This document shows, in pieces, positions 2,591 to 42,169 of a stretch of DNA of 42,169 bases. The notes under the pieces were generated by a model. That model saw nothing but the letters and a program-made list of their open reading frames with translations, did no database searches and was not told the DNA's origin. Made by a program: the position numbers and the translations under genes. The stretch is from a virus. The DNA lies in the IMG/VR virus record IMGVR_UViG_3300037042_003858, positions 1-42,169 of that record, one strand, 5' to 3'. Numbering within the stretch: position 1 is the first letter of the stretch; each line of letters starts with the position of its first letter.

Positions 2591-2877
2591 GCTGGTTCTC
2601 CTTCTTCTACTGGTTCGTATGTCATGGTGAAAATCTCATCTTTGCAGGGGTAGAATTCCCCTCGGATTCCCCTGATAACCGAATCTCCAACTATAGCCGT
2701 CATAATTCCTTCCAAGGTCTTGATCTGGAGATAACGCCCAGTCGGATTGTCCTCTGTCGGTTCAAGTACGGGAGATTCCACGACAACATCATTTGACCAT
2801 TGGCAAATGTCGTGTCCGTTATTCCCGGTGTACTCCATTGCCTCGATCACGATGGGTTTTTTCCTGAACTTGCTCAT
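2587..2877 (-). CDS. Conserved small phage protein (KKPxxIEA type), 96 aa
   Basis: Opens with MSKFRKKPIVIEAMEYTG and continues with a TLEGIMTAIVGDSVIRGIRG core and an EFYPCKDEIFTMTYE C-terminus. This is the pattern of a widespread small phage protein family, often found near lysis or tail genes, whose function is not established. The length is usual for the family and the protein looks intact. Its start overlaps the stop of the holin-like gene as ATGA and its stop overlaps the next small gene. Family assignment rests on recalled motif order. Confidence 0.8.
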   Translation of the reverse strand: MSKFRKKPIVIEAMEYTGNNGHDICQWSNDVVVESPVLEPTEDNPTGRYLQIKTLEGIMTAIVGDSVIRGIRGEFYPCKDEIFTMTYEPVEEGEPA

Positions 2878-3212
2878 GGCGTCCCGCCGTTCTTCTTCGC
2901 CGCCGAACTCTTCGTCAGTGACGTTGTGAAGAAGGTCCGAATGATGATGGTGACCACCGATCCCACCGCCATGATCGCCGCCATGACGGTCGCTTGATCT
3001 GTCTCTGAGATTTTGTAGCCAAACAAGGCCGCGACCGCGATCAAAAGCGTGATCGCGCTATTCCAGTTGACCTTGCTGGCCCACGAAGACTTGACTCCAG
3101 CAGCCACTGTCTCTGTCTCTTGCACGTTCCGCCTCCATTCTGTTATGAGTTTAGACGCTTGACCCCACAGCTTGTAGGCCTTCAACATCTGGCCGATCTT
3201 CTTGAACATCAC
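2874..3212 (-). CDS. Holin-like membrane protein
   Basis: 112 aa. An N-terminal charged helix (residues 1-45) is followed by two hydrophobic segments, about 50-66 (SAITLLIAVAALFGYKI) and 74-93 (ATVMAAIMAVGSVVTIIIRT), separated by a short SETDQ turn, then a basic tail KSSAAKK. Two closely spaced transmembrane helices with a charged tail and about 110 residues are typical of class II holins, which form the inner-membrane hole that releases the endolysin. It is coupled by ATGA overlaps to a one-helix membrane protein upstream and a conserved phage gene downstream. The candidate endolysin is at 40866-41219, downstream in the same operon if the genome is circular. Confidence 0.65.
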   Translation of the reverse strand: MMFKKIGQMLKAYKLWGQASKLITEWRRNVQETETVAAGVKSSWASKVNWNSAITLLIAVAALFGYKISETDQATVMAAIMAVGSVVTIIIRTFFTTSLTKSSAAKKNGGTP

Positions 3213-3538
3213 CGGCCCCCCGTCGTGTCCGGTTCAACGTATGCCCGCCGTGATTCTGGTATGCGTAGTTCATCCATGATCGCTTCGATGTTCTTGGCAA
3301 CGGCGATCTTCCATTGCAGATCCAGCGCCTTTTCCGTATTCTGCCGCGCCTGTGCCGTGTCCTGAATGTTGATCCGAACCCCGATCTCGACCAGCTCGTT
3401 CACGATGCGATTGATTTGCTTCTCGATAGCTCCCACATCGGAGGCGCGTATCGTGAGAAACAACGTCAGGAACACGGTCGCCATAGCGACGAAACTTCCC
3501 GCCACCCACTTCCAAATCCCGTTCCCGTTGCCCGCCAT
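3209..3538 (-). CDS. Single-pass membrane protein with coiled coil, possible lysis accessory
   Basis: 109 aa. Residues about 9-29 (WKWVAGSFVAMATVFLTLFL) form one transmembrane helix. Residues 35-90 are heptad-like and charged (IEKQINRIVNELVEIGVRI...), consistent with a coiled coil. The layout resembles inner-membrane spanins and other lysis accessory proteins, but no lipobox partner is visible, so the role is open. It begins three bases after the 1715-aa gene stop and overlaps the holin-like gene as ATGA. Confidence 0.6.
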   Translation of the reverse strand: MAGNGNGIWKWVAGSFVAMATVFLTLFLTIRASDVGAIEKQINRIVNELVEIGVRINIQDTAQARQNTEKALDLQWKIAVAKNIEAIMDELRIPESRRAYVEPDTTGGR

Positions 3539-27286: not shown

Positions 27287-27607
27287 ATGAGCAAGACACA
27301 GAAGCACACGCCGGGACCGCTAACAATCAAGTATGGCGACGGCTGGTGTACGATCAGACCTGACGACGGGCACGGCAAGATAGCGACCGTCCACATGCGC
27401 CGCAGCAAGCCAAACAACACCGAAGAGCTGGACGCCAACGCCCACCTATTCGCTGCCGCGCCGGACCTGTTGGCGGCGTCGGAGGTGGCATTCCAAAATC
27501 TGCAATTCCGGTCTGAGACAAAACAGAAGTGGACACTACGCGACCAGGCCGCGTTTGAGATTCTTGAGGCCGCAATCGCCAAGGCGACGGGAGGGGCAAC
27601 CCAATGA
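27287..27607 (+). CDS. Conserved early phage protein (HTPGP type), 106 aa
   Basis: Opens MSKTQKHTPGPLTIKYGDGW and has ELDANAHLFAAAPDLLAASE followed by a helical C-terminus. The HTPGP start and the 'ANAxLxAAAPDLL' block mark a very common small phage family found in early operons; its function is not established. Stop overlaps the next start as ATGA. Confidence 0.75.
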   Translation: MSKTQKHTPGPLTIKYGDGWCTIRPDDGHGKIATVHMRRSKPNNTEELDANAHLFAAAPDLLAASEVAFQNLQFRSETKQKWTLRDQAAFEILEAAIAKATGGATQ

Positions 27608-27816
27608 CTTGGGTAGAGACGATCCGGCAATTCCGGCGTGACCATCCGGGGCCGAAGGGCCGGGACATGGCGCAAGAGACGTTGTCGCGCTACTTGGGAG
27701 TATCGTCACAGTCAATCTCGAACTGGGAGCTGGGATACTCGGAAAGCGTGGGCGCGTTCCGAACAATGATCCTGGTGAAATTGGCGGCATATACGCCGGA
27801 AGCGAGGGAGATATGA
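27604..27816 (+). CDS. Cro/XRE-like HTH regulator (70 aa)
   Basis: TLSRYLGVSSQSISNWELG (residues about 25-43) is a helix-turn-helix of the Cro/XRE type, preceded by a basic N-terminal helix and followed by one more helix. The size fits a Cro-like repressor with no dimerisation extension. ATGA overlaps join it to both neighbours. It may act on the divergent promoters at 26574-26692, which is not shown. Confidence 0.7.
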   Translation: MTWVETIRQFRRDHPGPKGRDMAQETLSRYLGVSSQSISNWELGYSESVGAFRTMILVKLAAYTPEAREI

Positions 27817-28157
27817 GCACACAGACGAGCGAAGCGTTGAGTGGGCTGGCCAGCCGAATATTGATATTGTCGGTGGACTTTTTTGACTTGTCCAAGCCGG
27901 TCGGCATGATGCAGGGTATGGCCGTCAAGGAAATTCTCAAGAACGTGCACGGCAAGCTGTTACGTGCCGGCATGGTCGTAACCACACCCATCGACGTGGA
28001 CTACGAAACAGACGGTGAGGGTGGGTATCTGCTATATCTGGAAACGACTTACCCAAACTGCAAGCTACTGCAGTCGATTTGGCTGGACGATGGATGTGCG
28101 GTGGCGTGTGTCGCTCTGAACGATGGCACGGGCTGGCGGAAGATCGAAGCCCATTAG
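27813..28157 (+). CDS. Early protein of unknown function (114 aa)
   Basis: Last gene of the plus operon, starting in an ATGA overlap. Helical N-terminal half (LASRILILSVDFFDLSKPVG), then a strand-rich part (PIDVDYETDGEGGYLLYLET). The terminator at 28180-28215 lies 23 bases downstream. No family recognised. Confidence 0.55.
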   Translation: MSTQTSEALSGLASRILILSVDFFDLSKPVGMMQGMAVKEILKNVHGKLLRAGMVVTTPIDVDYETDGEGGYLLYLETTYPNCKLLQSIWLDDGCAVACVALNDGTGWRKIEAH

Positions 28158-39382: not shown

Positions 39383-39439
39383 GTTCCGGGTGCCAGAAGC
39401 AACCGTCCGAGAATTTCGGACAGTTGAAGTAGAAAGGTC

Positions 39440-39469
39440 TTGACACTCAGCCCCCGGTCCGCGTAGATG
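39440..39469 (+). promoter_or_regulatory. Candidate promoter of the plus microprotein operon
   Basis: TTGACA (39440-39445), an 18-base spacer and a weak TAGATG (39464-39469). The 108 bases to the first gene contain repeated CCGCTGGCG and GC-rich pairing, probably a structured leader. Confidence 0.35.
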
Positions 39470-39577
39470 GCTGTGTGTGGACCGGCAATCACACAAAAGA
39501 GACCCCACCCTGCCCGCTGGCGTTGATTCTCGCCGGTCCTCCGCTGGCGGGCGGGGATCGGGGTTTAGGAGGATGTG

Positions 39578-40216
39578 ATGAGCTTTTGGAAATCAGGTGA
39601 GTTGGTCGGACTCAAAGAATGTGCCCAGGCGATTCAAGACATCGCGGGACGATTACAAACACTCGAGTTCCGGCTGGCGGCGGGAGGAAACTTTGAGTTG
39701 TGGCGATTGGAATTTGCCCAATGGAAAGATTCGCTCATGACGCGGCTGGCGAGGGTCGAGGATGCACTGAATCAACGCGGAATGCTCAAATCACCCAAAC
39801 CCCCCGCCCCCAGCGCGCCGATCCTTGAAGCAGCACTTGGAATGCCTGGCCCGATAACGGCATTCTGTCCCAAGTGTAATTCTTCGTGGGCGCCGTGGGA
39901 CCCCACGAACATCAAACCCGGAGATCGCTGCCCGAAGTGTTCTTCACCGAAGACCGACATGCCGATCCTTGAAAAACGCAACATGACTCATCGTGGACAG
40001 GGGGAGGATTACCACACTGAATCAGATGATGAGGTCACCTCTTGTCCATGTTGTCGAACCATGATCGTCGGAAGAAAATACAAACCCGGCGACCCCTGCC
40101 CAAAGTGCGCGGAGAACACCGATCTCCTTATGCCCTGCGAGATATGGCTACGCGATACTGATCTTGTGGCGTTCCGGGTCTACTGGGCCAACAAGCAGGC
40201 CAAGGGGAGACAATGA
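39578..40216 (+). CDS. Coiled-coil and double zinc-ribbon protein (212 aa)
   Basis: ATG at 39578, five bases after AGGAGG. Residues 1-70 form a coiled coil (QAIQDIAGRLQTLEFRLAAG, then MTRLARVEDALNQ). Two zinc ribbons follow: CPKC (97-100) with CPKC (118-121), and CPCC (154-157) with CPKC (172-175), each with a PGD-x-CPKC knuckle. A short alpha/beta C-terminus ends the protein. Zinc-binding is clear; a partner or nucleic acid is unknown. First gene of the plus operon that continues in five microproteins. Confidence 0.65.
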   Translation: MSFWKSGELVGLKECAQAIQDIAGRLQTLEFRLAAGGNFELWRLEFAQWKDSLMTRLARVEDALNQRGMLKSPKPPAPSAPILEAALGMPGPITAFCPKCNSSWAPWDPTNIKPGDRCPKCSSPKTDMPILEKRNMTHRGQGEDYHTESDDEVTSCPCCRTMIVGRKYKPGDPCPKCAENTDLLMPCEIWLRDTDLVAFRVYWANKQAKGRQ

Positions 40217-40356
40217 ACCGCAAGAGGAAACCTCGCATTGTTCCGATCTTCAATGAGAATAATCACATGATCCTGCTTAATGGTGGGATTCCATCCCCAC
40301 CGTCTCCGTTCCTGAAGTTCTTGCAAAACAAGCAGGGGAAGAAGGACGTGGCATGA
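40213..40356 (+). CDS. Microprotein 1 of the coupled cascade (47 aa)
   Basis: ATG overlaps the stop of the zinc-ribbon gene as ATGA. Basic start MNRKRKPRIVPIFNENNHMI, a Pro-Ser turn and a basic end KNQ-like KQGKKDVA. Soluble. Its last codons (AAG AAG GAC) carry the ribosome binding site for the next gene. Confidence 0.6.
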   Translation: MNRKRKPRIVPIFNENNHMILLNGGIPSPPSPFLKFLQNKQGKKDVA

Positions 40357-40466
40357 CAGGATGGGAAGTTATACAGGCGTGTTGTTGGTTATGCGTGATC
40401 GCCGTCCTCTATTATAAGGCCGGTTTTGATGCTGGCAAAGGACAGGCCAAGAAGGACGGTGAGTGA
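40353..40466 (+). CDS. Microprotein 2, membrane (37 aa)
   Basis: ATGA overlap with the previous gene. MTGWEVIQACCWLCVIAVLY is one transmembrane helix with three Cys, followed by a Gly/Lys tail ending KKDGE. Stop overlaps the next start as TGATG. Confidence 0.6.
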   Translation: MTGWEVIQACCWLCVIAVLYYKAGFDAGKGQAKKDGE

Positions 40467-40609
40467 TGGACTGGGAAAACTGGAAAGATTGGACTCCCGG
40501 CGTTATCTGTCTGATTGGCAGTTGTTTCGCGATGAGCACACCATTAGCAATCCTCGGAGCTGTTCTAATCTGGGCCAATGATTCGACCCGTCGTCAAGGT
40601 GGTGAGTGA
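40466..40609 (+). CDS. Microprotein 3, membrane (47 aa)
   Basis: TGATG overlap. Trp-rich amphipathic start MDWENWKDWTPGV, then a hydrophobic segment (ICLIGSCFAMSTPLAILGAV) and the tail TRRQGGE. The GGTGGTGAG that encodes QGGE also serves as the next gene's ribosome binding site. Confidence 0.6.
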   Translation: MDWENWKDWTPGVICLIGSCFAMSTPLAILGAVLIWANDSTRRQGGE

Positions 40610-40710
40610 TGGACTGGTTGTTATGTGTCTTGCGCGGAATTACAGTGATTCTTAATATCGCTGCGATGATTTTACTATGGCCATCGGCCCCTCGCCAAGG
40701 GGGTGAGTGA
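40609..40710 (+). CDS. Microprotein 4, membrane (33 aa)
   Basis: TGATG overlap. MDWLLCVLRGITVILNIAAM plus ILLW is one transmembrane helix; the tail is PRQGGE, like microprotein 3. The shortest of the set. Confidence 0.6.
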   Translation: MDWLLCVLRGITVILNIAAMILLWPSAPRQGGE

Positions 40711-40886
40711 TGACAGACGAATTTCGGAATCATAGCCTATCCCCCGAAGGACGTGAACAGATTCGACGATTGTTTGATGGCACGCTGCTGGATTCTCCGG
40801 CTCGGACTACCAAGAACAACAACTCATCATGGTGGCTTCGATTCCGATTCTGGTTACGGCGACACCTACACCTCTTTCACCTGTAG
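40710..40886 (+). CDS. Microprotein 5, basic (58 aa)
   Basis: TGATG overlap. Charged N-terminal half (MTDEFRNHSLSPEGREQIRR) and a strongly basic, aromatic C-terminus (WWLRFRFWLRRHLHLFHL) that could bind membrane. Its last 21 bases overlap the convergent endolysin gene. Confidence 0.55.
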   Translation: MTDEFRNHSLSPEGREQIRRLFDGTLLDSPARTTKNNNSSWWLRFRFWLRRHLHLFHL

Positions 40887-41219
40887 ATGAATGTGAACCT
40901 TGTCCGGTTCATCGTTGAATCCAAAAGCCATCGACGGTTTGTAGCGGTTCCAGTGCTGGTGCAGTTGTTCAATCTGCATTTTGTTCAGCGTCCGCCGCCG
41001 GATGTCTACCGCCCGGATCGGCTTGACCATGTGCAGGGACGTGGGCTTGCCGCCCACCGCTGTGTTCTCATCTGAAGTCCGATAAAGGCACGTCACAACC
41101 AGATCGGGGACTCCCAGCTCTTCGGCGAAGCAGGCTAGGTTAAGAACCTGTGCCCGGAGTGGCGGGTATGTCTCTCTCCACTCAGCTTCTAGATCGTCGT
41201 GTTTGAATTTCAGACCCAT
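40866..41219 (-). CDS. M15-type peptidase, candidate endolysin
   Basis: 117 aa from the ATG at 41219, with AAGGAG just upstream (spacing short). SLHMVKPIRAVDI (61-73) fits the S-x-H-x-x-x-x-A-x-D zinc motif of D-Ala-D-Ala carboxypeptidase and L-Ala-D-Glu endopeptidase families, and VHIHLQ (108-113) gives the third ligand. Such small M15 enzymes serve as phage endolysins cutting peptidoglycan cross-links. It follows the fibre-like gene at the end of the late operon. No signal peptide, so the holin-like protein at 2874-3212 would be needed for release. Confidence 0.75.
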   Translation of the reverse strand: MGLKFKHDDLEAEWRETYPPLRAQVLNLACFAEELGVPDLVVTCLYRTSDENTAVGGKPTSLHMVKPIRAVDIRRRTLNKMQIEQLHQHWNRYKPSMAFGFNDEPDKVHIHLQVKEV

Positions 41220-41226
41220 CGACTCC

Positions 41227-42169
41227 TTATGGACACGTGACTCCATTCGCTATATGTCCGATGCAATCTGTTGTCTCGGTGGTGATATTGATCGTCACCG
41301 ACCAGCGCGCCGCCCCGCTGAAATCATAGCAGGTGATTTTCCACCGGCTTCCAGATGGCTTGATGTTGCTGTTGAGCGGCAGATCGACGTACCACAACCC
41401 AGCGTCATCAGTCTTGTCCCCAATTTGCATTCCCGCCGAATACTGCACTCCATTTGAATTGTCCACCACCACGCTGTCACCCGTCAACGTCGGGCAGATC
41501 AGGCTGGCCGTGACCTGCAATCCCTCAAGGGCGTCGCCGCCCTGGAACTCGTACCCATAGACACGTTTCAGCCCCGCCGTGGAGGGTGTCCCAATCACGA
41601 TGTTGTAGCCACGGAGCGTATCACAGAACGTCGTCCCCGCGCCGGTGGTGTCTTTGAACAGCGGGAACACGTACCCCGGCAGATAACCCACCAGACAGAT
41701 CGCCGTAGACACTTGATTGTTGCCCGTTGCGATTCCGAGCGAATTGGTTCCGTTCTGCGTGCTCCACAAGCTGGTCGTCTGGGCAAGGTTCTGGACATCG
41801 ACACTGACTGCCGAGACGGGACTATCTGTCCCCGACGTGTCGATCACGAACACGGTCAGGGTTTGTGGCCCGGTACCACTGGAGCCAGTCTGGGCGTAGT
41901 ATTGCCCGGAGTCCCGCATGGCCTTGGCGGCAGTCAAGAGTTGATTGAGCGTGTCGCGCCAGTAGGTCGAGGGATCGGATGCGCCGGCTCCCTGCCCCCA
42001 ATCATCCCCGTGAGGCGCATGGGCAAGAAGCGTATCCACAAACGCCTTTGCGTATGCCTTGGTGAGACTGTCCTGAGTCGAATCCTGTTTGATGGCATTG
42101 TAGGCCGTCTGCAGAACCTGATGGAGTTTGCCCGCCCCGTCATAGCTTTTCAGAGTGTCGAGAATAGCA
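41227..42169 (-). CDS. Fibre-like late protein (3' part, cut by window edge)
   Basis: The frame is open to the right edge (313 residues visible); an internal GTG at 42039 is not needed. A helical N-terminal part (LKSYDGAGKLHQVLQTAYNA, then TQDSLTKAYAKAFVDTLLAH) is followed by a beta-rich part with Gly/Thr/Asp-Thr repeats (LTVFVIDTSGTDSPVSAVSV), like the other late exported proteins. It probably continues the gene cut by the left edge (1-418). Adding one base at the join gives a protein of about 453 aa with a signal peptide. Confidence 0.65.
   Translation of the reverse strand, partial: AILDTLKSYDGAGKLHQVLQTAYNAIKQDSTQDSLTKAYAKAFVDTLLAHAPHGDDWGQGAGASDPSTYWRDTLNQLLTAAKAMRDSGQYYAQTGSSGTGPQTLTVFVIDTSGTDSPVSAVSVDVQNLAQTTSLWSTQNGTNSLGIATGNNQVSTAICLVGYLPGYVFPLFKDTTGAGTTFCDTLRGYNIVIGTPSTAGLKRVYGYEFQGGDALEGLQVTASLICPTLTGDSVVVDNSNGVQYSAGMQIGDKTDDAGLWYVDLPLNSNIKPSGSRWKITCYDFSGAARWSVTINITTETTDCIGHIANGVTCP

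Follow-up and report, generated by a model that had tools for sequence, protein, structure and literature searches.

A rightward row of overlapping microgenes joined by repeated start modules in an unclassified tailed phage

Phage annotation often omits genes of 30–60 codons, which are difficult to predict. The virus record analysed here (hereafter the window: the whole record, 42,169 bases) holds five such genes in a row, which raises the question of whether they are genes at all and, if they are, how the row was put together and what its products might do. A first-pass annotation of the sequence had described a five-gene cascade in which each gene supplies the ribosome binding site (SD) of the next, had taken two of the genes for duplicates and had offered small holins and host membrane modifiers among the possible roles. 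The genes concerned, which we refer to as m1 to m5, and the gene that precedes them are as follows:

39578–40216, + strand: zinc-ribbon gene, 212 aa, the first gene of the operon; N-terminal helical part and two CxxC..CxxC zinc ribbons
40213–40356, + strand: m1, 47 aa; basic, without a transmembrane segment; tail KQGKKDVA; SD -8.3
40353–40466, + strand: m2, 37 aa; one hydrophobic helix; tail KKDGE; SD -6.5
40466–40609, + strand: m3, 47 aa; one hydrophobic helix; MDW start and RQGGE tail; SD -9.2; alternative start GTG 40463
40609–40710, + strand: m4, 33 aa; one hydrophobic helix; MDW start and RQGGE tail; SD -8.3; alternative start GTG 40606
40710–40886, + strand: m5, 58 aa; soluble N-terminal half and basic aromatic C-terminus WWLRFRFWLRRHLHLFHL; SD -11.8; alternative start GTG 40707

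The coordinates of the row (40213–40886), the five lengths (47, 37, 47, 33 and 58 codons) and the ATGA or TGATG overlaps given in the first-pass annotation were correct on re-check. All five microgenes are present; the cascade, however, comprises six genes, the zinc-ribbon gene overlapping m1 by ATGA just as m1 overlaps m2, with TGATG in the context GGTGAGTGATG at m2/m3, m3/m4 and m4/m5. At the five junctions leading into m1–m5 the start overlaps the previous stop by 1 or 4 nt and the SD lies inside the previous gene, the arrangement by which translationally coupled gene pairs are recognised. All six starts have an SD of -6.5 to -11.8 kcal/mol against the 16S end (-10.2 kcal/mol for the zinc-ribbon gene, which has GTG 39575 as an alternative start), and only 3.8% of + strand ATGs reach -8. 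The SDs AAGGtGGTGA (m3/m4) and AAGGgGGTGA (m4/m5) are each one base off the full AAGGAGGTGA, with six bases from the GGnGG core to the ATG. The proposal that the last codons of each gene double as the next ribosome binding site is therefore borne out by an SD match within the preceding coding sequence at every microgene start; of the recurrent tails that had been linked to it, KKDGE was seen in m2 and RQGGE in m3 and m4, with m1 carrying KKDVA.

Three of the five genes had been said to encode one hydrophobic helix each, and a simple Kyte–Doolittle window method agreed, the best 19-residue means being 1.70 for m2, 1.98 for m3 and 2.33 for m4; a value of 1.7 is reached by only 1.2% of random ORFs of 33–58 aa. 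The highest coding score among the five microgenes belongs to m1. A lipobox in m2 (VIQAC) was ruled out by inspection, there being no signal-peptide layout ahead of it, and antisense frames at 40369–40578 and 40503–40733 were rejected as genes on coding scores of -13 and -24 bits. No homologue of the zinc-ribbon protein was found among phages; its two zinc-ribbon halves, at 39913–39939 and 40081–40107, are an internal duplication that is still visible in the DNA (85% over 27 nt).

How readily would such a row arise by chance? The overlap chain by itself was discarded as evidence, since it is common in simulated genomes once GTG and TTG starts are allowed. Because chains of 5–8 are frequent in such simulations with any start codon, the improbable part is the combination of ATG and SD at every start and not the overlap alone. 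When chains were defined by an ATG start, a stop overlap, an SD at -6 or better and a length of 30–70 codons, the window held a chain of five, while none of 300 simulated genomes went above three (one reached three, the rest one or two) and the longest chain in 87 other viral loci (1.04 Mb) was three, in one locus. The microgene row is non-random, and the earlier remark that small genes of this kind are easily missed applies to what look like real, coupled microgenes.

It could still be argued that only the zinc-ribbon gene and m1 are functional, with m2–m5 being decaying or neutral frames that stay open by chance behind repeated junctions. The synonymous codon scores of m2–m5 are slightly negative, such that codon use does not support them as native genes, and they have no homologues. 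We nevertheless consider this improbable: ATG, SD and overlap at five consecutive starts were absent from the simulated genomes, three of the five frames are hydrophobic against the 1.2% expected of random frames, and the same design recurs elsewhere with unrelated hydrophobic sequences, as described below.

The junctions themselves resemble one another in two pairs, D1 and D2:

40333–40367, + strand: junction repeat m1/m2, D1 copy 1; gene end, SD and start; 35 nt, 71% to 40443–40477
40443–40477, + strand: junction repeat m2/m3, D1 copy 2; gene end, SD and start
40583–40611, + strand: junction repeat m3/m4, D2 copy 1; gene end, AAGGtGGTGA and ATG; 29 nt, 86%; motif CAAGGNGGTGAGTGATG
40684–40712, + strand: junction repeat m4/m5, D2 copy 2; gene end, AAGGgGGTGA and ATG

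This likeness (TCGrCCCsTCGyCAAGG) exceeds what an SD requires, and the motif CAAGGNGGTGAGTGATG is present in two exact copies and one with three differences, every copy at a start. From their common start and tail, m3 and m4 had been taken for duplicated genes. The MDW start, the tail and the junction (29 nt, 86%) are indeed repeated, but the bodies are no more alike than shuffles: the proteins align significantly through their ends only, the z score being 0.46 once MDW and RQGGE are removed, and the DNA cores give a z of 0.22. Gene duplication was ruled out for this pair, the bodies being unrelated. Both repeats run from the end of one gene through the SD to the start of the next, and the cores score so low, that the copied unit is a start module (gene end, SD and ATG) and not a whole gene. 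At the m5 start the SD is predicted to pair with codons of m4 in a local hairpin, a fold that would make m5 more reliant on translation of what precedes it; hairpins over the junctions were no more stable than in shuffles.

The phage that carries the row is unclassified. It is a tailed phage, encoding a T4-type large terminase, SU10-like capsid and adaptor proteins and RecE/RecT recombination proteins, and nearly all of its genes point leftward, with early genes from about 39.3 kb downward followed by structural genes. A late leftward unit runs across the ends of the record, with a tail-like gene and then an M15 endolysin ending at 40866, and the rightward operon (39578–40886) fits in between, bounded on one side by where the early genes begin and on the other by where the late genes end. 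Both ends of the record fall inside the tail-like gene (- strand, 41227–42169 plus 1–448). Its halves are out of frame by 2 bases where they meet, which suggests a probably circular genome whose record lacks at least one base. A second small rightward block at 27.3–28.2 kb (27287–28157, + strand) encodes a 106-aa protein (phrog_1273), a 70-aa HTH_3 protein and a 114-aa protein with ATGA overlaps and looks like a toxin–antitoxin or repressor pair. The G-C skew changes sign at 26–30 kb.

Codon use in the 674-base cassette is atypical, and the cassette is the lowest-G+C stretch of that length in the genome (50% versus 57%); the operon is most likely a compositionally foreign, moron-like accessory cassette. 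Two features upstream of it may bear on its transcription:

39440–39469, + strand: candidate promoter of the rightward operon, TTGACA-18-TAGATG (9/12 consensus match, 18-nt spacer); a weak, consensus-only match that was missing from a stricter promoter scan
39500–39567, strand not assigned: very stable hairpin directly 5' of the first ribosome binding site, followed by the T-rich TCTCTTTTGTG on the - strand

The region of the hairpin (39470–39600) has a minimum free energy of -57.2 kcal/mol on the + strand, with z scores of -2.2 for this strand and -0.4 for the minus strand. The hairpin resembles a terminator for leftward late transcription and could halt late transcripts, which would otherwise continue past it, antisense to the cassette, and enter the early region. 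The AT-rich region that separates the divergent operons also contains an operator-like palindrome, TCCGAGAATTTCGGA, at 39407–39421.

Within m2 lies the best sigma-70-like match of the genome, TTGCCA-16-TATAAT (11/12; 40438–40411, - strand), which may be a chance occurrence. An RNA made from it would be antisense to m1 and the zinc-ribbon gene and, taken together with small hydrophobic and basic aromatic products, this would suit small hydrophobic toxins (type I toxin-like or killing peptides) under antisense control from the - strand. We regard this as the least probable of the readings set out here, as five coupled genes behind a zinc-ribbon gene are not type I anatomy, one 11/12 site in 84 kb of strand is compatible with chance, and there was no defence or toxin profile match, a PADLOC scan of the operon for known defence models being empty.

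Two genes elsewhere in the phage bear on the proposal of small holins:

40866–41246, - strand: M15-family peptidase, likely endolysin (Pfam Peptidase_M15_3, E 4.5e-8); last gene of the leftward late unit
2874–3212, - strand: holin candidate with two hydrophobic segments, in the late operon; four PHROG holin families, best E 0.003

With one hydrophobic segment each by the Kyte–Doolittle window, m2, m3 and m4 do have the one or more transmembrane helices expected of a holin, and they adjoin an endolysin gene; a lysis module of small holins, antiholins or pinholins serving the M15 endolysin could be envisaged from this, the more so as profile support for the main holin candidate at 2874–3212 is weak. 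Such a role is disfavoured and we judge it unlikely. The M15 gene lies on the opposite strand to the microgenes, convergent with m5 and overlapping its end by 21 bases, which would place the row outside the leftward late transcript. Neither Pfam nor PHROG holin families matched any of m1–m5, whereas the two-helix protein of the late operon weakly matches four holin families; 2874–3212 thus appears the better holin candidate and argues against a holin role for m2–m4. Similar microgenes are also found away from lysis genes in three of four unrelated groups of phages (below). Just before the holin candidate, a 109-aa protein (3209–3538, - strand) with one N-terminal helix and a helical rest is possibly a second holin or spanin part.

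Searches of viral contigs with the endolysin, zinc-ribbon protein, portal, terminase, capsid and RecT found no close kin of the phage, and nor did a terminase search of bacterial genomes; the nearest terminase is 30% identical and its source had nothing else in common above E 0.01. Annotated phages gave no match by megablast of the region or by tblastn with the endolysin, zinc-ribbon and capsid proteins. None of the six operon proteins had a homologue in the collections searched. Because neither operon homologues nor close phage kin were found, the design was sought instead of the sequence, as two copies of GGTGAGTGATG whose starts lie 87–117 bases from each other, irrespective of the intervening sequence.

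Nine viral contigs matched this two-junction pattern. Two (L093 and L097) had no plausible microgene between the junctions or were of low complexity; the remaining seven, in four unrelated groups, have SD-rich junctions with microgenes between them. The same design therefore recurs in unrelated phages. A single helix was found in 7 of 12 distinct doubly coupled microgenes, compared with 63 of 556 (11%) other SD-preceded small ORFs of the same size range from unselected viral loci (Fisher p 1.6e-4), in a comparison designed after seeing the window, with identical sequences merged and the low-complexity contig removed by hand. By contrast with the viral contigs, none of 22 pattern loci in bacterial genomes had a doubly coupled microgene, those that were read out being low-complexity repeats or lacking a microgene. 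The rows neighbour a primase/helicase (L092), a DNA methyltransferase and DNA polymerase (L094) or an integrase operon convergent with lysis genes (L091), whereas that of L089 lies near the terminase small subunit and not among early genes; three of the four groups thus hold their rows in early/replication or integrase regions and not in lysis cassettes. In one group of related contigs (L090, L092, L095 and L096) every record contains four to seven gccgcactgAAGGAGGGTGAGTGATGGA-like modules, which share a single strand, and a reversed-pattern control found none. Each gccgcactgAAGGAGGGTGAGTGATGGA copy in these records (e.g. L096:2053–3400) precedes a small gene, and several of the genes share both ends (MDIVE..., ...ALKEGE); these modules are possibly a new SAS-like family (see below). 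Such rows look like a recurring phage way to add very small membrane genes.

On this evidence the reading that we favour, with a probability of roughly 0.55, is that the microgenes close a rightward operon of six genes that is foreign in composition and moron-like; they would be a set of coupled genes with membrane products that serve an accessory function and not that of a lysis holin. We infer the coupling, membrane insertion, timing and function of the microgenes as follows. As every stop overlaps the following ATG and each gene's final codons form the next SD, ribosomes would travel down the row by termination–reinitiation, and the products would be made in linked amounts. A copied start module would give any short frame behind it a ready start, and unrelated bodies between near-identical ends would be expected for that reason. 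The products would act in or at the host cytoplasmic membrane, m2–m4 as single-span helices and m5 perhaps through its basic aromatic tail, and would serve early in infection or as accessories, for example by modifying the host or keeping other phages out; the effect of these membrane microproteins on the host envelope may fall early or in the lysogenic state. Among the roles proposed in the first-pass annotation, a modifier of the host membrane is the most likely. Early action at the host membrane, if it occurs, would make the products candidates for exclusion or for takeover of the host. The junction motif also offers a simple finder of coupled membrane-microgene rows in phages that share no other sequence.

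Morons are foreign accessory genes in phages, and the cassette resembles them in lying on the opposite strand to the neighbouring late genes, in having the lowest G+C of the genome and in its position at a transcription-unit boundary; it differs in that its own promoter and terminator are only suggested. The overlaps are of the ATGA/TGATG types described generally as a route to translational coupling by termination–reinitiation (PMC6728339), for which linked expression of neighbours is expected, although here there are five successive genes of 33–58 codons in place of one pair and coupling is presumed. Like the prokaryotic small single-span membrane proteins that annotation has missed (PMC10903887), m2–m4 have fewer than 60 residues and one membrane-spanning helix; in contrast, they are phage-borne and stand in a coupled row, and no homologous member was found.

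The closest parallel to the junction repeats is with the Start-Associated Sequences (SAS/ESAS) of cluster K mycobacteriophages, a conserved SD-containing repeat found where several unrelated genes start, for the most part away from the structural module; about half are of an extended form with 17-bp imperfect inverted repeats upstream (PMC3203893). Similar start-associated repeats have been described in Microbacterium cluster EF phages (PMC7302621) and Citrobacter phage Mordin (PMC4611695). The junction repeats are also conserved, SD-containing and placed directly at several starts (D2 29 nt, 86%). However, they are part of the 3' coding sequence of the gene before and overlap its stop (TGATG), whereas SAS lie between genes, and their consensus is AAGGNGGTGAGTGATG, in few copies within one cassette. 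The SAS consensus GGGATAGGAGCCC, with at most two differences allowed, had no match in the window, and the inverted repeats of 39550–40950 included no 17-bp pair of the extended form at the junctions. Because consensus, non-coding position and extended repeats all differ, the junction repeats are a variant that works like SAS and not a member of that family. The role of SAS repeats was still open in 2025 (PMC12699233), and one testable explanation for start-associated repeats in phages is that they may serve as start modules to be reused when small genes are inserted. More speculatively, phages may repeatedly build membrane-microgene rows with copied coding start modules (gene end, SD and stop-overlapping ATG), the module acting as a mobile or duplicating seam that gives short, even newly arisen, hydrophobic frames immediate expression; the rows would then be nurseries of new membrane proteins, and SAS the non-coding form of the same thing.
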